Part shown: in pieces, positions 198 to 30,640 of the stretch | Position numbering within the stretch: the stretch's first letter is position 1 | Layout: the number at the start of each line of letters is the position of its first letter | Origin: a virus | Length of the DNA stretch: 30,640 nt | Direction: 5' to 3' (one strand) | Virus record (IMG/VR): IMGVR_UViG_3300044646_001426 | Coordinates: 1 to 30,640 of that record | Program-made: the position numbers and the translations under genes | The notes under the pieces: model-generated | Seen by the model: only the letters and a program-made list of their open reading frames with translations | Told to the model about the DNA's origin: nothing | Databases searched by the model: none

Positions 198-215
198 TTT
201 GACATCGTTGCATTG
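198..215 (+). promoter_or_regulatory. TTTGACA boundary motif before the terminase small subunit
   Basis: TTTGACA occupies 198-204 and the TTG start candidate of the next gene follows 8 bases later. It is the first of nine gene-boundary copies of this heptamer in the window. There is no -10 hexamer at a normal distance, so it is not called a sigma-70 promoter here. Confidence 0.35.
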
Positions 216-875
216 TCCGTGGGAATCACGGAATTAAGCAACAGCCTCGGCATCGACAAGTCGGTCGTCTCCCGCCTCGTCAAGAAAGGCATGCCCACGA
301 CCTCCGTGGACGCCGCCCAGGCGTGGCGTGAGACGAACGCACCGCCGAGGGCCAAGCGCGGCCAGCGCGGCGAAGCGCCACCTCCGCCGAAACTCTCAAA
401 GGTCGCCGAACCTCCGAGAGTGTCAGAGCCTGCCGACCCTCTGCCAGTTCCTCCACCGCCGCCGGTTCACGACAGCGCACCCGAGCCGGACGACGAAGAC
501 AACACGCCGCGCCAATCCCTCCGCCGCGCCCGCCTTGCCGAGAAGGTCGGTTACAACGAACTCGTCATCTGCAAGCGCAACGGCGGCTCGGTCGAAGACA
601 TCCGCAAGGCAAACCAAATCTATATCGCCAGCCGGAACAACCGCATCAAAGCCGAGAAGGATTTCAAAGACTGGCAACGCCAGGAAGCCATCACCCTCTT
701 CTACGACGAAGCGCGCGACATCACGAGCCGCCCGCACATCACCGCCAAGCAGCTCCTCGAAGTCATGCCCAAGACCCTCGCCACCCGGCTGCACGGCCAG
801 CCGCAGAAAACCATCGAAGCCACCCTTGCCGAGTGGGCCGACAACCTCACGACCATCATCCGAAAAGCCATATGA
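213..875 (+). CDS. terS: Terminase small subunit, Nu1-like
   Basis: A protein of about 220 residues, predicted to recognise the packaging site and load the large subunit onto DNA at the start of genome packaging. The N-terminus (ITELSNSLGIDKSVVSRLV, about residues 4-22) has the form of the winged helix-turn-helix of Nu1-type small subunits. A Pro-rich linker follows (about 45-95), then a helical, charged C-terminal half expected to mediate oligomerisation and large-subunit contact. No ATG lies near the start; TTG at 213 or GTG at 219 are the only reasonable choices after the in-frame TAG at 195-197. Its stop overlaps the next start as ATGA. It is separated from the large subunit by four cargo genes, which is unusual. 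The call rests on the HTH and position rather than strong sequence recognition. Confidence 0.75.
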   Translation: MSVGITELSNSLGIDKSVVSRLVKKGMPTTSVDAAQAWRETNAPPRAKRGQRGEAPPPPKLSKVAEPPRVSEPADPLPVPPPPPVHDSAPEPDDEDNTPRQSLRRARLAEKVGYNELVICKRNGGSVEDIRKANQIYIASRNNRIKAEKDFKDWQRQEAITLFYDEARDITSRPHITAKQLLEVMPKTLATRLHGQPQKTIEATLAEWADNLTTIIRKAI

Positions 876-1381
876 CCATCGAACACCTCAAAACCTCCGA
901 CCTCATCCCCTACGCGCGCAACGCGAAAAAGCACGACGCCAGCCAAGTCGCCAAGCTCGCCGGGAGCATCCGCGAGTTCGGCTTTACCAACCCCGTCCTC
1001 ATCGACAAGGACAACGGCATCATCGCCGGTCACGGGCGCGTGCTCGCCGCTCAATCCCTCGCCCTCGAGGCCGTCCCCTGCATCCGCCTCGGCCACCTCA
1101 CCGACACGCAGCGCCGAGCCTACATCCTCGCCGACAACCGCCTCGCCGAGATCGGCGGCGGGTGGGATGAGGAAATGCTCAAGCTCGAGCTGGCGGATCT
1201 ATCACAAAATGCGGATCTCGATTTCGACCTGACCGGATTTTCAGATACCGACCTGCACAAGCTTTTGATCGAAACAAAAGAAGACGCACCTCCTGATGAC
1301 TTCAAAGAATTCGATGAGGGCATCGAGACGGATCACAAGTGCCCGCGCTGCGGATACGAATGGAGCGGCAAGACGAAATGA
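872..1381 (+). CDS. ParB/Srx-fold protein with C-terminal zinc ribbon
   Basis: 169 residues starting at the ATG that overlaps the terminase stop (ATGA). Residues about 5-95 match the ParB N-terminal/sulfiredoxin fold: an N-terminal strand with SDLIPYARNAKKH, a helix, a PVLIDKDNGIIAGHGR segment carrying the GHGR phosphate-binding motif at about 53-56, and a LADNRLAE helix. The C-terminus ends in a single CPRCGYEW knuckle, half of a zinc ribbon. In phages and mobile elements such domains are frequently fused to or placed beside DNA methyltransferases, and some are nucleases or nucleotide-dependent switches. Here the next gene is a cytosine methyltransferase, overlapped by ATGA at 1378-1381. Its role is unknown. 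I infer DNA binding, or control or targeting of the modification enzymes, rather than plasmid partition, because no ParA is present. Confidence 0.8.
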   Translation: MTIEHLKTSDLIPYARNAKKHDASQVAKLAGSIREFGFTNPVLIDKDNGIIAGHGRVLAAQSLALEAVPCIRLGHLTDTQRRAYILADNRLAEIGGGWDEEMLKLELADLSQNADLDFDLTGFSDTDLHKLLIETKEDAPPDDFKEFDEGIETDHKCPRCGYEWSGKTK

Positions 1382-2694
1382 ATGCAAAAATAATTTTGCG
1401 AGAATTTGGGGGGGGGGAGGTTGAGCGTTCAATCGATCTCCCAGCTCCAACCATAATGGCTGGAGGAATAGCTGCGGTAGGACACTCACAGTATTTCATA
1501 CAGCCTTCGAATTCAAAGCATGAGACAAAAACCGAAATGAATAAACCTCCTTACAAAGTCCCAAGCATGGAGGAAATCCGTGCGCTCCCCTGGAATGGAT
1601 TCACCGCAGCCTCCACATTCAGCGGGTGCGGCGGTTCCTCTACAGGCTACCGCATGGCAGGGTTCAAGTTGCTATGGGCTTCGGAGTTTATCGACGCAGC
1701 CCGTGATTCTTACAAAGCAAACGCCGCTCCACACACGATCGTCGACGGCAGGGACATCCGCGAAGTCCAACCCGAGGACATTCTAAAGGCTACCGGCCTT
1801 AAGCCCGGCGAGCTTGACCTGTTCGACGGTTCCCCGCCGTGCGCTTCATTTTCTACCGCAGGGAAACGCGAAGCCGGATGGGGCAAGGTAAAAAAATACA
1901 GCGACAAGGAGCAAAGGACAGACGACTTGTTTTTTGAATATTCTCGGCTCATCCGTGGCCTACAGCCTAAAACTTTTGTCGCTGAAAATGTCAGCGGCCT
2001 CATCAAAGGAACCGCAAAAGGCTACTTCCTCGAAATCCTCAAAGAACTCAAGTCCTGCGGCTATCGCGTGAGTTGCAAAGTCCTCGATGCGCAATGGCTC
2101 GGCGTCCCGCAAACAAGACAGCGGACTATTTTTATCGGCGTGCGTGAAGACCTCGGCATCGATCCAGTTCATCCCAAGCCGCTCGCGTATCGCTACAGCG
2201 TGCGGGATGCGCTGCCGTGGATAACTCGAGTTGTTCATGATACTTCAGGCCAGTTTGGGGTAGGAGAAATCACAGACCGGCCAAGCCCAGCGATTACCGT
2301 TGGCGTGAACTCAGTGAACAGCCTGCATTTTAAGGTTGATGGGCCAGAACCAGAAACCGACATAAGCCGCTACGCTATCGGCGCAGAGTGGGACAATTTA
2401 AAACCCGGCGAGCAGTCCGACAAATACTTCAATCTTGTTCGGACCGATCCAGACAAGCCAAGCCCAACCGTATGCGGGTCGCATGGTAATAGCTCAACGG
2501 CTGGGATTACGCACCCGCATGAAAAGCGAAAATTCACCATCGCCGAACTCAAACGCATCTGCGGATTCCCTGATGACTTTATTCTGAAAGGAACCTACGC
2601 GCAGCAATGGGAACGCTGCGGGCGTGCCGTCCCTCCCGTCATGATGTCGCACATCGCCGCAACAGTGCGCGACGAAATACTCAGGAAGCTCTAA
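1378..2694 (+). CDS. C5-cytosine DNA methyltransferase family enzyme with an altered motif X
   Basis: 438 residues from the ATG coupled to the ParB stop; an internal ATG at 1537 (residue 54) would give 385 residues and sits just before the first recognisable domain. Family motifs are clear: motif I FSGCGGSSTGYRMAGF at about 81, motif IV DGSPPC with the catalytic Cys at 155, motif VI ENV, motif VIII QTRQRTIFIGV, and motif X CGRAVPPVM near 414. The usual Gly-Asn of motif X is Gly-Arg (codon 2623-2625). The enzyme should attack cytosine C6 and transfer a group from a SAM-type donor to C5. Residues 1-53 contain a 10-G tract and a stretch (ERSIDLPAPTIMAGG) resembling the internal 'PAPT' strands seen later at about 300-370, as if a piece of a second methyltransferase were joined on. 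No restriction endonuclease lies nearby. Confidence 0.9.
   Translation: MNAKIILREFGGGEVERSIDLPAPTIMAGGIAAVGHSQYFIQPSNSKHETKTEMNKPPYKVPSMEEIRALPWNGFTAASTFSGCGGSSTGYRMAGFKLLWASEFIDAARDSYKANAAPHTIVDGRDIREVQPEDILKATGLKPGELDLFDGSPPCASFSTAGKREAGWGKVKKYSDKEQRTDDLFFEYSRLIRGLQPKTFVAENVSGLIKGTAKGYFLEILKELKSCGYRVSCKVLDAQWLGVPQTRQRTIFIGVREDLGIDPVHPKPLAYRYSVRDALPWITRVVHDTSGQFGVGEITDRPSPAITVGVNSVNSLHFKVDGPEPETDISRYAIGAEWDNLKPGEQSDKYFNLVRTDPDKPSPTVCGSHGNSSTAGITHPHEKRKFTIAELKRICGFPDDFILKGTYAQQWERCGRAVPPVMMSHIAATVRDEILRKL
1408..1417 (+). repeat. G10 homopolymer near the methyltransferase start
   Basis: Ten consecutive G residues lie 30 bases after the first ATG of the methyltransferase gene. In the current length the frame from 1378 stays open into the enzyme. 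Gain or loss of one G would break translation from 1378 but not from the internal ATG at 1537. Such tracts are typical slip sites. Confidence 0.85.
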
Positions 2695-2695
2695 T

Positions 2696-4063
2696 ATGTG
2701 CGGAATCGCTGGCGCGACAAATACAAGCCGGGAAAAAGTGCAGGGGATGCTGGACCGCATTCAGCACAGGGGGCCAGATGGGCAGGGCATCTTTGACCAC
2801 GCGGGAGTCATGCATGGGCATGTTCGCTTGGCGCTTGTCGATTTAACCTCTGCCTCGTCACAACCCTTTCGGCGTGACGGAGCCACACTGACTTTCAATG
2901 GAGAAATCTGGAACTTCCGCGACTTGCGGGCCGAGCTGGAAGCGCACGGCGAAAAGTTTGTGAGCACTGGAGACACGGAGGTTTTTTTAGCGATGCTGAA
3001 CCGGTTCGGCCTTTCTGCTCTTGAAAAAATCGACGGCATGTTTGCCTTCGCTTGGTCATCAAAAGCTGGAGAGCATTGGCTTGTCCGCGACAGCTTTGGG
3101 AAGGTGCCGCTTTATGTTGGCAAAACGCGAGGCGGCTATATGTGGGCGAGTGAGCGAAAGGCTTTCCCCTTCGGTATGCAACCCATCTCCGTGCCGCCTG
3201 GATATGCTTTTAATTTACTCACTGGAGAATGGCGCAAGTGGTATAAAATGCCGCAACCTACGCACTGCGGACAGGATCAGGTTTTAACATACCTGCGGGA
3301 AGGCGTAGGCAAACGGCTGGATGCTGATGCGCCTGTGTGTTGTTTGATCTCTGGCGGTCTCGATAGCAGCATCATTCTGGCCTTGGCAAAGGAGCGCCGT
3401 GCGGATGTCGTCGCATTCACTGCCGTTTACAATCCGGCATCTGACGACGCAAAGAGCGCGCGGCGGTTATGCTCGGATTTAGGCGTCCCGCTTTTCGAGG
3501 TGCCGGTTACACTCGATGAGTCAGGAATAACGCAAGCGATGCAGGCCATCGAAATCCCATCAAAGGCTCAAATCGAAATCGCCACCCTATGCCTGCCGCT
3601 TGCAAAGCGTGTTTATGCTGAAGGATTCCGCGCGTGTTTGTCGGGTGAAGCGGCAGATGAGATTTTCGGCGGGTATGGGAATTTCTGCATCCAAGCATCA
3701 AAGCAAAACGATGCGGGCGTCATTGAGTTAAGGAAGGCACTACTTAGCAAAATGGCACGAGGTAATTTCGTGCGATGCAACAAAGCATTCATGGCTCATG
3801 GCGTAGAATGCCGGCTCCCCTTCATGGAACAGCGCCTTGTCGAGTCAGCTATCCAACTTGGCAAAAGCGACTCAAGACCCGGCAAGGTTTTACTCAAAGA
3901 AGCCTGCAAAAACATTCTTCCGACATGGGTAATAAAACGAGTGAAAGACACCTTCCAAGGCGGCAGCGGAATCTCAGATGAGATTGCGAAACGCTACACA
4001 TCACCAATCAAATACTACAACGCCGAGATGCGTAAAATGTTCGGCTACCTTCCAGAAAACTAA
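2696..4063 (+). CDS. Glutamine-dependent asparagine-synthetase-like amidotransferase (AsnB family, compact)
   Basis: 455 residues, about 100 shorter than typical AsnB. The N-terminal class II glutaminase domain is intact: MCGIAG with the Cys2 nucleophile, RGPDG, a RLALVDLTS loop, NGEIWN, a GDTEV segment and RDSFGKVPLY. The C-terminal synthetase domain has the pyrophosphate loop SGGLDSS (about 220), SGEAADEIFGGY (about 315), CRLPFMEQRL and the KVLLKEACKNILP segment with its conserved Lys. It should therefore hydrolyse glutamine and channel ammonia to an AMP-activated carboxylate. In bacteria the acceptor is aspartate, but in a phage modification block the acceptor could be a carboxylated base. 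The ATG follows the methyltransferase stop by one base and the stop overlaps the next start (TAATG), so the genes are co-translated. Its codon use is less C-rich than the structural genes, suggesting separate acquisition. Confidence 0.9.
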   Translation: MCGIAGATNTSREKVQGMLDRIQHRGPDGQGIFDHAGVMHGHVRLALVDLTSASSQPFRRDGATLTFNGEIWNFRDLRAELEAHGEKFVSTGDTEVFLAMLNRFGLSALEKIDGMFAFAWSSKAGEHWLVRDSFGKVPLYVGKTRGGYMWASERKAFPFGMQPISVPPGYAFNLLTGEWRKWYKMPQPTHCGQDQVLTYLREGVGKRLDADAPVCCLISGGLDSSIILALAKERRADVVAFTAVYNPASDDAKSARRLCSDLGVPLFEVPVTLDESGITQAMQAIEIPSKAQIEIATLCLPLAKRVYAEGFRACLSGEAADEIFGGYGNFCIQASKQNDAGVIELRKALLSKMARGNFVRCNKAFMAHGVECRLPFMEQRLVESAIQLGKSDSRPGKVLLKEACKNILPTWVIKRVKDTFQGGSGISDEIAKRYTSPIKYYNAEMRKMFGYLPEN

Positions 4064-4707
4064 TGACAATCCCAACCGACTGGACTTTCAAAACCGCCGA
4101 TGTCGCAGGAGCTTTTGACCGGCATGTGCGCGAGCAACTTCCGTGGTATGACCTCACGACGGGAGTGGTCGCGCATGTGGCGCGGCACTACATACCGGAG
4201 GGCGGGCGCGTGTATGATATTGGAGCCAGCACAGGGAATGTCGGGAACGCTATCGCGGACACACTTACAGCCCGCAAGGCGGAACTAATTCCCATCGATA
4301 ATTCGGCGGCCATGTCGGAAATCTATTGCGGCCCCGGCAGCCTTGTCATCGCAGACGCTGCCGAGTTTGATTATCAACCCTTCGACCTTGCCGTTCTTTT
4401 CTTGTGCTTGATGTTTGTCCCACCATCGAAGCGCGGGGAATTTATCGCTCGGCTTCGTTCTCGCATCCGGCCAGGCGGGGCGATCATTGTTTTCGACAAG
4501 TGCGAACCGGCCACAGGCTATGTCGCCACGGTCCTCTGGCGGCTGGCACTCGCAGGCAAGACGGCGGCAGGAGTAGACGCCCGCGAGATATTGGCAAAAG
4601 AGCTATCCCTTGGAGGCATCCAGCGACCGATCAACCCGCGCGAAATAGAACCCGCCACCGAGATTTTCCGCTTTGGAGATTTCGCCGGATGGATTATCGA
4701 GCCATGA
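4063..4707 (+). CDS. CmoA-like class I SAM-dependent enzyme (candidate carboxy-SAM synthase)
   Basis: 214 residues with a Rossmann SAM fold. Motif I is VYDIGASTGNVG (about 50-61) and motif II is LIPIDNSAAM (about 75-84), both very close in pattern to CmoA, which has YDLGCSLGAAT and IIAIDNSPAM. The preceding REQLPWYD also resembles the SVPGY region of CmoA. The middle (LFLCLMFVPPSKRGEF, then IRPGGAIIVFDK) and the end (FRFGDFAGWI) follow CmoA order as well. CmoA converts SAM plus prephenate into carboxy-SAM. If that activity is conserved, this gene supplies an unusual donor to the adjacent cytosine methyltransferase. Alternatively it is an ordinary methyltransferase of the same fold. The start overlaps the upstream stop (TAATG) and its stop overlaps the terminase large subunit start (ATGA). 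Confidence 0.75.
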   Translation: MTIPTDWTFKTADVAGAFDRHVREQLPWYDLTTGVVAHVARHYIPEGGRVYDIGASTGNVGNAIADTLTARKAELIPIDNSAAMSEIYCGPGSLVIADAAEFDYQPFDLAVLFLCLMFVPPSKRGEFIARLRSRIRPGGAIIVFDKCEPATGYVATVLWRLALAGKTAAGVDAREILAKELSLGGIQRPINPREIEPATEIFRFGDFAGWIIEP

Positions 4708-6407
4708 CCCCCGCCGCCGAAGCCCTACGCGAACACCTGCGCTCGATCTACGCGCCGATTGACCGGCGCACCGTTACCGAGTGGTGCGCTGACGAGGTGA
4801 TATTGAGCGAGCGGCAGACGCAGATGCCCGGAGCATTTTCGACACGCCTCACGCCCTACCTCCGCGAGCCGCTCGAGTGCTTCGGCGATGTCGATGTTTC
4901 CGACCTCGTCCTCGTCTTCGGCACGCAGACCGGCAAGACCACGATGGTGCAAGCAGGCACCGCCTGGCGCATCGTGAACAAGCCGCAGCCCGTCGTGTGG
5001 GTCATGCCCACCGAAGGCCTCGCCCGATCATTCTCCGAGACGCGCTGGCTCCCGCTCTTCGACGACAGCGCCACGCTCGCCGCTCAGAAGCCAGCGGACC
5101 GGCACCGATTCAAAAACCTCGAGCAGCATTTTTCGCGGTGCTCGCTCGTCTTCGTCGGCAGCAACTCCCCGGCAAACCTCGCCAGCCGCCCCGCCGGACT
5201 CCTTCTTATGGACGAGGTGGACAAATTCGCCCGCGAGACCGACCAAGAAACCTCCGCGCTTTTCCTCGCGGAGAACCGCACCAAGTCCTTCGTCGGCGCG
5301 CTTCGCGTCAAGACCAGCACACCCACCACGCCGGACGGCGCGATATGGCAGGAGTTTTTGAAAGGCACGCAGGAAAAATTCATGCTCGAGTGCCCGCATT
5401 GCCACGAGCGCATCGAGCTTTTGTGGGAGCAGGTAAAGTGGGACACCGAGGCGAAAGTGGCCGGCAAGTGGAACATGGCGCGCGTCGAAGAGTCCACTCG
5501 CTACATTTGCCAGCGGTGCGGAGGCGAGTGGAACGACGGCCAGAAGATCGAAGCCCTGCAAGACGGCAAATGGCAGGCCACAAACCCCAGCGCCCAGCGC
5601 GGCTTTCGCAGCTTCCACCTTAATTCCCTCTACGCGCCGTGGCGCTCCTGCACATTCGGCGCGCTCGCGGTGAAATTCCTACGCGACAAGGACACGCTCA
5701 ACGGCCTCCAAGATTTCACCAACAGCACGATGGCCATGCCGTGGGAGCAGGTCGAGACCAGCATTGGAGACGCCAACATCCTCAGCCTCCGAGGCGACTA
5801 CACGCGCGGCACCTGCCCGATCGAGCCAGCGCACATCGTCACCTGCGCCGACATCGGCCAGGATAAACAGCACTGGACCACGGTCGCCTTCGACGCCAAC
5901 GGCCAGAGCTATGTCCTCGACTACGGCACCACGCTCACCATCGAAGACCTCCTCGCCGACTCGCCCCGCCGCATCTACCGCACGCCCAGCGGGCAGGAAG
6001 TCCGCCCCGAGTGCGGCCTCATGGATTCCGGCTTCGCCACCTTCCGCGTTTACACCGCTTGCCAAGTCAGCGCCGGATTCTGGCACGCCGCCAAAGGCTC
6101 CGGCGCAACCTTCGGCAGCCGCATCGGGCGCACCGTCATAGACGACTTCCCCGGCGTCGTGCTTTACACCTTCGTCGACCACGCCATCAAAACGGAACTC
6201 TTCATCGACCGCATCCGCAACGGCAAGCCCCCGCTCGCCATCCCGCGCGACACCACCGAGGACTTCCTACGCGGCATGAGCGGACAGCGCCTCGTCCCCC
6301 GCAAGACCGCCACCGGGCAAGAGTTCGTCTGGAAATCCGTGGCGCAAGATCACTACATGGACGCCGTGAAACTCTGCCATGTCGCCTGGCACATCTTGAA
6401 AAACTGA
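4704..6407 (+). CDS. terL: Terminase large subunit, GpA type
   Basis: 567 residues. The packaging motor ATPase plus nuclease that pumps DNA into the prohead and cuts concatemers. The ATPase domain shows Walker A FGTQTGKTT (about 72-80), LVFVGSNSPANLASRPAG ahead of Walker B LLLMDE (about 166-171), and the coupling region KTSTPTTPDG. Two CxxC pairs (ECPHCHE, and CQRCGGEW about 60 residues later) form the zinc-binding insert seen in lambda gpA relatives. The C-terminal half carries acidic residues expected for the RNase H-like nuclease (TCADIGQDKQHW, GLMDSGFAT and HYMDAVKLCH near the end). The ATG at 4704 overlaps the previous stop; an upstream extension in the same frame from 4404 has no merit because it overlaps the CmoA-like gene entirely. 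The length is slightly below lambda gpA (641), so the extreme termini may be reduced. Confidence 0.95.
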   Translation: MTPAAEALREHLRSIYAPIDRRTVTEWCADEVILSERQTQMPGAFSTRLTPYLREPLECFGDVDVSDLVLVFGTQTGKTTMVQAGTAWRIVNKPQPVVWVMPTEGLARSFSETRWLPLFDDSATLAAQKPADRHRFKNLEQHFSRCSLVFVGSNSPANLASRPAGLLLMDEVDKFARETDQETSALFLAENRTKSFVGALRVKTSTPTTPDGAIWQEFLKGTQEKFMLECPHCHERIELLWEQVKWDTEAKVAGKWNMARVEESTRYICQRCGGEWNDGQKIEALQDGKWQATNPSAQRGFRSFHLNSLYAPWRSCTFGALAVKFLRDKDTLNGLQDFTNSTMAMPWEQVETSIGDANILSLRGDYTRGTCPIEPAHIVTCADIGQDKQHWTTVAFDANGQSYVLDYGTTLTIEDLLADSPRRIYRTPSGQEVRPECGLMDSGFATFRVYTACQVSAGFWHAAKGSGATFGSRIGRTVIDDFPGVVLYTFVDHAIKTELFIDRIRNGKPPLAIPRDTTEDFLRGMSGQRLVPRKTATGQEFVWKSVAQDHYMDAVKLCHVAWHILKN

Positions 6408-29729: not shown

Positions 29730-29967
29730 GCGCAACACCAGCGCAACGCTCTTGCAAATCCTTGATTTACAGCACTAGTTTTTTGATTCGTAATCGATAG
29801 GTCACGAGTTCAAATCTCGTCGTCGGCTCTCTCCTTCTGAAGCCCCTCGAACCGCATAAACACTGGCTCGGCGGGCGTTTTTCTGTATCGCACGAAATGG
29901 ATTGAAATGGCACGGCAAATGGTTGAAATTGCCCCCATGAGCGCAACAAGCGCAACACGGCGCAACA
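29730..29967 (+). promoter_or_regulatory. Repeats flanking the attachment core: candidate integrase arm sites
   Basis: GCGCAACA occurs at 29730-29737, as a one-mismatch copy at 29741-29748, and at 29941-29948, 29950-29957 and 29960-29967, so two copies lie left and three right of the tRNA core. The right copies are 9-10 bp apart, one helical turn, and lie in the first codons of the integrase gene. A second pair, AAATGGATTGAAATGG (29895-29910) and AAATGGTTGAAATTG (29917-29931), also lies just ahead of the gene. Such direct repeats are typical of arm-type integrase or excisionase sites. A weak hairpin followed by GTTTTT near 29842-29883 could end transcription. Confidence 0.55.
29782..29828 (+). 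other. 3' half of tRNA-Thr(CGT): attachment site core (attP)
   Basis: The sequence gives an anticodon loop TTCGTAA (29787-29793) flanked by GA/TC pairs, a T-stem ACGAG/CTCGT around TTCAAAT (29804-29820) and an acceptor strand CGTCGGC with discriminator T. The anticodon is CGT, that is Thr. Upstream of about 29782 there is no D-arm or acceptor strand, and the lower anticodon stem is mismatched, so only the 3' half from the anticodon stem onward is present. That is the usual extent of the identity block of a tyrosine-integrase attP. No CCA is encoded. With integrase following at 29937, this is most likely attP of a non-integrated genome. Confidence 0.8.
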
Positions 29968-30640
29968 AGCCGGTGGTAACCATTCGCACGGCGACGGTGC
30001 GGGGGGAACCTCGATTCGTGGTTTTTTCGCGGATCAATGGCGTCGCCAAGCGGGAATTTTTTCGCACCCAGGCGGAGGCGCGGGTTCATCAGGCGGCACT
30101 CTTGGAGAAGCTGGAGACTCGCGGGACGGAGGCTTTCACCGGCCCGGCGGGAATGACGGTGGCGCAGGGGTGGCGGGAGTTCTGCCTGGCGCGGATGCCG
30201 AAGCTGAAGGATGGGAACCACCGGCGGCTCTTGGAGTGGTGGTGGGGGAAGTTCGTGGCGGAGTATGGCGCGAAGGAACTCCGCGACATCAAAGCGATTC
30301 ACATCGATGCGTTTCTCTCGCGGCCGGGGTGGTCGGGGACTACGGCGAACCAAGGGTTCGTGTATCTCCGGCTCGTCTGGAATTGGCTGGTTCGCTACGA
30401 ACTCACATCGACCAATCCGGTGCTCAAGATCGACACGCCGAAGGCCGCGCCGGAGCATCACCTCTTGACGGTGGCGGAGGTGAAGCGGTTGCTGGCGCTC
30501 ACTAAAAAAGATGCGCGCCTCCGCGCTTGGCTCGTGCTCGGAGTTTTTGGCGGCATGCGAATCTCGGAGGTGTGGCGGTGTGAGCCGAAGCACATCGAGC
30601 ATGAGGAAATCTTTGTGCCGATCCGCAAATCCACGGACAT
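29937..30640 (+). CDS. int: Tyrosine-type site-specific integrase (partial at right edge)
   Basis: An open frame from ATG 29937 runs to the window edge (at least 234 residues). An N-terminal basic, beta-like arm-binding part (SATSATRRNKPVVTIRTATV) precedes a SAM-like core-binding domain (REFCLARMPKLKDGNHRRLL, IKAIHIDAFLSRPGWSG, NQGFVYLRLVWNWLVRYELT). The start of the catalytic domain includes LTVAEVKRLLALT and GVFGGMRISEV with the first catalytic Arg at 208. The remaining catalytic residues, including the tyrosine, lie beyond the window. Codon use is G-rich (many gcg, ggg, cgg codons), unlike the C-rich genes to the left. It would recombine attP (29782-29828) with the host tRNA-Thr gene. Confidence 0.9.
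   Translation, partial: MSATSATRRNKPVVTIRTATVRGEPRFVVFSRINGVAKREFFRTQAEARVHQAALLEKLETRGTEAFTGPAGMTVAQGWREFCLARMPKLKDGNHRRLLEWWWGKFVAEYGAKELRDIKAIHIDAFLSRPGWSGTTANQGFVYLRLVWNWLVRYELTSTNPVLKIDTPKAAPEHHLLTVAEVKRLLALTKKDARLRAWLVLGVFGGMRISEVWRCEPKHIEHEEIFVPIRKSTD

Follow-up and report, generated by a model that had tools for sequence, protein, structure and literature searches.

We analyzed the IMG/VR virus record IMGVR_UViG_3300044646_001426, whose entire 30,640 bases are called the window below, and found a four-gene ParB-CmoX-CmoY-CmoA cassette between the genes for its two terminase subunits. Judged by its genes, the cassette is a member of a published class of DNA hypermodification systems, the class in which the CmoY ligase carries a glutaminase domain, and taken as a whole it probably makes 5-carbamoylmethylcytosine. 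An uncultivated, probably temperate phage thereby joins the 5-carboxymethylcytosine (5cxmC) systems, in a class whose final step is predicted; 5-carbamoylmethylcytosine, if true, would count as a natural DNA base not described before. The readings of the window rest on homology and genomic context, from which we infer the donor and acceptor, the role of ammonia as amine, the base produced, its sequence context, and the protection in vivo. The likelihoods given below for single steps overlap: if one step is true, the others become likelier.

The CmoA-CmoX-CmoY system was described by Yang et al. (Nat Commun, 7 December 2025; PMC12783734) for the Synechococcus phage S-B43, and we found no other paper on this modification in the open-licence literature. 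In S-B43, CmoA produces carboxy-S-adenosylmethionine (carboxy-SAM), CmoX, a homologue of C5-methyltransferases, yields 5cxmC, and CmoY, a homologue of asparagine synthetase, couples the carboxylate of 5cxmC to glycine; the virion DNA contains the glycine-modified base, and carboxymethylated DNA was resistant to HhaI in vitro (PMC12783734). The same authors surveyed IMG/VR v4 and other sets, reporting 5,615 CmoX candidates, 4,257 CmoA, 2,251 ligases, and 1,660 ParB-domain neighbors; the ligases of their second-largest CmoY cluster have a glutamine-hydrolyzing domain, and glutamine-derived ammonia was suggested as the substrate (PMC12783734). The claim of the first-pass annotation that the window holds an undescribed system does not survive this publication.

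In the proposed pathway, CmoA would convert S-adenosylmethionine (SAM) and prephenate to carboxy-SAM, and CmoX would transfer the carboxymethyl group onto cytosine C5 to give 5cxmC in the phage DNA, its exchangeable recognition segment selecting the short sequence context. The N-terminal domain of CmoY would then hydrolyze glutamine, and its synthetase domain would adenylate the carboxylate and add ammonia, giving 5-carbamoylmethylcytosine. The amidation would remove the negative charge, and the modification would have a protective role, with the DNA probably hidden from nucleases. The first-pass annotation had proposed the same carboxymethylation and amidation. Carboxy-SAM synthesis and C5 carboxymethylation hold up to the extent that homologues have been shown biochemically to perform them (PMC12783734) and that the CmoX of the window has the arginine discussed below; the former is less certain for the divergent CmoA branch of the window, which lacks the E. 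coli Arg199. For the amidation with glutamine-derived ammonia, the suggestion made for the AsnB class (PMC12783734) and the intact glutaminase and synthetase motifs speak in its favor; the exact product is a prediction.

The three predicted enzymes

Among solved structures, the CmoX of the window matched SpCmoX with carboxy-SAM (8YF3) best (Table 1), followed by M.HaeIII (E = 1.1e-24). It has the C5-methyltransferase fold, and its DGSPPC motif aligns with S95-C98 of SpCmoX. Its GRAVPP motif supplies an arginine in the column of SpCmoX R350, the residue that binds the carboxylate; M.HaeIII has an asparagine there, and the equivalent residue of M.HhaI is Asn304. The SPPC motif and Arg350 are both present in all 63 of the 63 CmoX-type sequences collected. 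Wild-type SpCmoX, the S-B43 enzyme bearing this arginine, takes carboxy-SAM only (PMC12783734). Arg350 is the residue that defines a carboxymethyltransferase, and the methyltransferase of the window carries it; we hold with very high confidence that this enzyme uses carboxy-SAM.

The AsnB homologue of the window has GATase_6 and Asn_synthase domains. The glutaminase motifs (Cys2, RGPD, and NGE) and the synthetase motifs (SGGLDSS, GEAADE, and K417) are all recognizable, and across 41-42 relatives the motifs of both domains are almost all invariant. The protein combines an N-terminal glutaminase bearing Cys2 with an AsnB-type synthetase bearing SGGxDS, which is the arrangement of the glutaminase class. 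The top fold match of its AlphaFold2 (AF2) model (mean predicted local distance difference test score, pLDDT, 88) was E. coli AsnB 1CT9, with template modeling (TM) scores of 0.85-0.86.

We collected 38 viral loci by the CmoY gene alone, with at least 48% identity to the CmoY of the window. CmoA adjoins CmoY in 38 of 38 of these loci, CmoX is present in 37, and ParB in 36; the single locus without CmoX is a contig that starts inside CmoY. The co-occurrence search that the first-pass annotation had called for thus favors the pathway over free asparagine synthesis. Alternatively, the enzyme could produce free asparagine, or amidate some other small molecule, its link to the methyltransferase being accidental or that of a metabolic gene; its score of 287 bits against the asparagine synthase equivalog TIGR01536 (cut-off 267 bits) and its E. 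coli AsnB fold would agree with this. However, the strict linkage led us to reject free asparagine synthesis, and we regard this whole alternative as highly improbable. Distant viral AsnB homologues recovered in the same scan (L088-L090, 23% identity) have neither CmoX nor CmoA within the stretches of their loci covered here; a motif-based scan of the genomes of 84,980 species with the CmoY profile gave no bacterial member, its sole match being a 28% identical Calditrichota AsnB; and the CmoY homologue of S-B43 works on 5cxmC DNA (PMC12783734). That the CmoY of the window likewise acts on 5cxmC DNA is strongly to be expected.

Given that substrate, ammonia is the likely amine, and we place good confidence in it. 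The same pathway could instead end with CmoY adding a non-ammonia amine (an amino acid, such as glycine, or a small amine), with the glutaminase domain decayed or accessory and an N-substituted amide of 5-carboxymethylcytosine as the product. The sole CmoY assayed to date takes glycine, other CmoY clusters have different pocket residues (PMC12783734), and a short Asn_synthase-type ligase without a glutaminase domain accompanies CmoA in three of the viral contigs compared here (L028, L043, and L044; handles of this kind denote such contigs throughout). Against this, Cys2, RGPD, and NGE are retained in 40-42 of the 42 sequences of the class. Because these residues are kept, the glutaminase domain is under selection. 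The use of another amine is unlikely.

The CmoA homologue scored 53 bits against TIGR00740, under the equivalog cut-off of 193. When a family profile built on it was compared to the Protein Data Bank, the first matches were two CmoA structures, 4GEK from E. coli (E = 3.1e-21) and 1IM8 (YecO) from H. influenzae. The structure-based comparison suggested by the first-pass annotation gave the same answer: the AF2 model (pLDDT 84) had CmoA 4IWN as its first fold match at a TM score of 0.80, with 4GEK next to it (TM 0.79-0.80 for the two) and CysG close behind. Among class I methyltransferases, the protein is thus nearest to CmoA in both sequence and fold, and it is very likely that it makes carboxy-SAM.

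Several observations weigh against the pathway as proposed. In E. coli CmoA, Arg199 binds the carboxylate of carboxy-SAM and is the hallmark residue (PMC3663124). The window CmoA and its branch have glutamate in this column and lack the salt bridge, and the window CmoA also replaces Asn132 (by Phe), Gln136 (by Met), and His182/Asp183 (by Leu/Ala). The alignment near position 199 is anchored by Lys198 (66 of 66 sequences) and Leu202 (65 of 66). Carboxylate binding in this branch is, on the aligned residues, the main weakness of the assignment. In addition, a published attempt to produce a glutaminase-class CmoY gave insoluble protein (PMC12783734).

We considered the missing Arg199 as a disproof of CmoA identity and rejected it: the biochemically verified S-B43 CmoA likewise carries Glu in place of Arg199, with Leu in place of Asn132, but retains Gln136 and Asp183. 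Because this active enzyme has Glu199, Arg199 does not define phage CmoA, and because it lacks both Arg199 and Asn132, the objection is weakened. Other phage CmoA proteins have Ala or Ser in the Arg199 column, and Arg is retained in the proteins of PaBG and of Erwinia and Alcaligenes phages. In two columns, those of Asn179 and Leu207 in E. coli, the branch of the window has an almost invariant Arg of its own (63 of 66 sequences; Arg160 and Arg188 in the window CmoA). It is unlikely that this branch binds its ligand differently and takes the carboxyl group from a molecule other than prephenate, or forms another SAM derivative, in which case the final base would be neither 5-carbamoylmethylcytosine nor the glycine adduct.

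The lack of Arg199, and a fold that is also near ordinary methyltransferases such as CysG/BelI, would fit another explanation as well, in which the methyltransferase makes plain 5-methylcytosine, the CmoA homologue methylates with SAM like any other methyltransferase, and the cassette is a collection of separate modification genes. Arg350 of CmoX speaks against this, as does the fact that CmoA and CmoX remain together in 29 of the 32 loci with enough upstream sequence, and we consider the explanation very improbable. Carboxymethylation with carboxy-SAM from CmoA remains our preferred account of these two genes.

Exchange of cassette parts among related phages

Two sister phages of the window lack exactly CmoY: L008 (94-97% DNA identity to the window in the parts aligning around the cassette) and L010 (84-95%). 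In both, window base 2690 is joined to 4063, and CmoX overlaps CmoA via ATGA. CmoY is likewise missing from L009, L011, L013, and L014. A second lineage provides another pair, with CmoY present in L022 and absent from L023; their ParB genes and the first part of CmoX are 93-94% identical. The short ligase of L028 is of the S-B43 (glycine) type and occupies the CmoY slot, and ligases of the same type lie near CmoA in L043 and L044. Near-identical phages that are without CmoY alone are what one would predict if the last step were optional.

The target-recognition segment of CmoX (positions 2223-2346) varies between sister phages. Here blastn matches to L008 and L011 stop, with flanks that are 84-97% identical; the same is seen in L013, and L009 shows a comparable break. 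A second recognition-like peptide (PAPTIMAGGI...SQY) precedes the conserved start of CmoX at 1383-1532. Similar peptides occur in N-terminal or internal positions, or as separate small frames, in the CmoX loci L011, L022, L032, L036, L049, L050, and L084, as if they had been shifted around among these loci. From these comparisons we infer that the target sequence and the chemical finish are both exchangeable. The presence or absence of CmoY and the exchange of the CmoX segment in near-identical phages suggest that finish and target are swappable defenses against host nucleases, and the sister phages with and without CmoY are natural matched pairs. The pairs, the exchange of the CmoX recognition region, and the relatives with a glycine-type ligase are new here; such modularity is absent from the main text of PMC12783734.

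Some loci pair CmoA with other partners. In L043 (2682-4774), CmoA and the short CmoY-type ligase occur without CmoX in 7.8 kb, and a frame on the opposite strand between them (3521-4252) looks by eye like a SET domain. In the near-identical sister phage L012 (658-2531), whose CmoA and TerL (terminase large subunit) are 97% and 95% identical to those of the window, a ParB-methyltransferase fusion (PHROG 5475) and a 130-aa PHROG 32036 protein replace CmoX, and CmoA is kept. The Gordonia phage Evaa has a similar ParB-methyltransferase and CmoA, plus a phosphatase; the Evaa and L012 fusions are 47% identical. The L012 fusion may be another user of carboxy-SAM, or CmoA may be a leftover there. A viral scan gave no further relatives; PHROG 5475 proteins also occur in Pseudomonas and Aeromonas phages, but these phages are not among the CmoA matches listed, and among the Pseudomonas phages examined, only PaBG was seen carrying CmoA. 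In L038 (5411-6654), a 197-aa HPPC protein overlaps the start of CmoA in place of a full CmoX and appears by eye to be a truncated C5-methyltransferase. In L092 (3989-5688; Staphylococcus phage SPbeta-like), cmoA is immediately followed by a 332-aa C5-methyltransferase that has GSPC rather than SPPC and lacks the GR.V motif (CmoX R350-type); it is possibly a different kind of CmoA partner.

Comparison with related systems

The S-B43 system has the same three enzyme families within one operon. Its CmoX is ~39-41% identical to that of the window and has SPPC and Arg350, and the CmoA proteins of both phages lack Arg199. In contrast to the window, the S-B43 CmoY is short (271 aa), uses glycine for the ligation, and lacks the glutaminase domain; the annotation shows no ParB gene adjacent to the cassette; the gene order is CmoA-CmoY-CmoX; and the cassette does not lie between the terminase genes. 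Streptomyces phage TurkishDelight (genes 122-125) shares the order ParB-methyltransferase-glutaminase AsnB-CmoA with the window, with CmoX 64% and CmoY 35% identical. Its CmoA, however, is only 29% identical, belongs to another branch, and keeps Gln136, His182, and Asp183, and its cassette is not located between the terminase genes. Moraxella phage Mcat8 has ParB-like, CmoX, and CmoA (52% identical) genes immediately upstream of a packaging gene and the terminase, as in the window, but the locus is without CmoY; its modification is predicted to end at 5-carboxymethylcytosine.

Engineered M.MpeI N374K resembles CmoX in transferring the carboxymethyl group from carboxy-SAM onto cytosine C5 and in having a basic residue in the same place, whereas it is artificial, acts in a CG context, and is without amidation (PMC12783734). 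E. coli AsnB 1CT9 shares its fold and catalytic motifs with the CmoY of the window but acts on aspartate, and E. coli CmoA 4GEK/4IWN shares its fold with the CmoA of the window but serves tRNA modification.

Layout of the cassette and its surroundings

The four genes that the first-pass annotation had placed between the terminase subunits are open reading frames with the coordinates in Table 1, and profile matches confirmed the family calls. The extent of the methyltransferase gene needs a qualification: its frame is open over the annotated length, but the conserved part begins only at ~1537, the preceding recognition-like stretch being an insert. The genes are tightly coupled, with ATGA-type overlaps at the TerS (terminase small subunit)/ParB, ParB/CmoX, and CmoA/TerL junctions, a gap of 1 nucleotide between CmoX and CmoY, and a TAATG overlap between CmoY and CmoA. 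Dozens of further viral contigs show the same gene arrangement, which is therefore not due to chance. The ParB-like protein, whose Pfam ParB_N score is slightly below the cut-off of that profile, is possibly DNA-binding.

Table 1. Coordinates of the cassette genes, CmoX segments, and flanking terminase genes in the window.
Feature	Position	Strand	Evidence
Terminase small subunit-like protein, upstream flank	213..875	+	PHROG 57, weak, E 2.3e-05
ParB N-terminal-like protein of 169 aa, at the head of the cassette	872..1381	+	PHROG 620 E 2.5e-55; PF02195 E 1.5e-05
Predicted CmoX-type DNA cytosine C5-carboxymethyltransferase, 438 aa as annotated	1378..2694	+	PF00145 E 1.6e-55; 8YF3 E 1.6e-70
Insert in the N-terminal extension, resembling a target-recognition segment (DLPAPTIMAGGIAAVGHSQYFIQ)	1383..1532	+	No counterpart in L008, L009, L010, L014
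Variable target-recognition segment of CmoX	2223..2346	+	blastn breaks against sister phages
Predicted CmoY of the glutamine-hydrolyzing class, AsnB-like, 455 aa	2696..4063	+	TIGR01536 E 2.8e-85
Predicted carboxy-SAM synthase of CmoA type (214 aa), from a divergent phage branch	4063..4707	+	TIGR00740 E 2.7e-14; PHROG 4752 E 2.5e-45
GpA-type terminase large subunit, downstream flank	4704..6407	+	PF05876 E 6.3e-58; PF20454 E 1.1e-26

A search of phages for closely similar DNA gave a single match, 76 bases in the head protease gene, and neither this search nor the CmoY scan of bacterial genomes pointed to a host. At the other end of the window, positions 29790-29835 read as a partial tRNA gene, its 3' half (no complete tRNA was reported by ARAGORN or Rfam), and an open frame at 29907-30640 that continues past the end of the window matches phage integrases (PHROG 1, E = 2.4e-23). 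The region 29790-30640 is probably an attachment site with its integrase, and the phage is therefore probably temperate.

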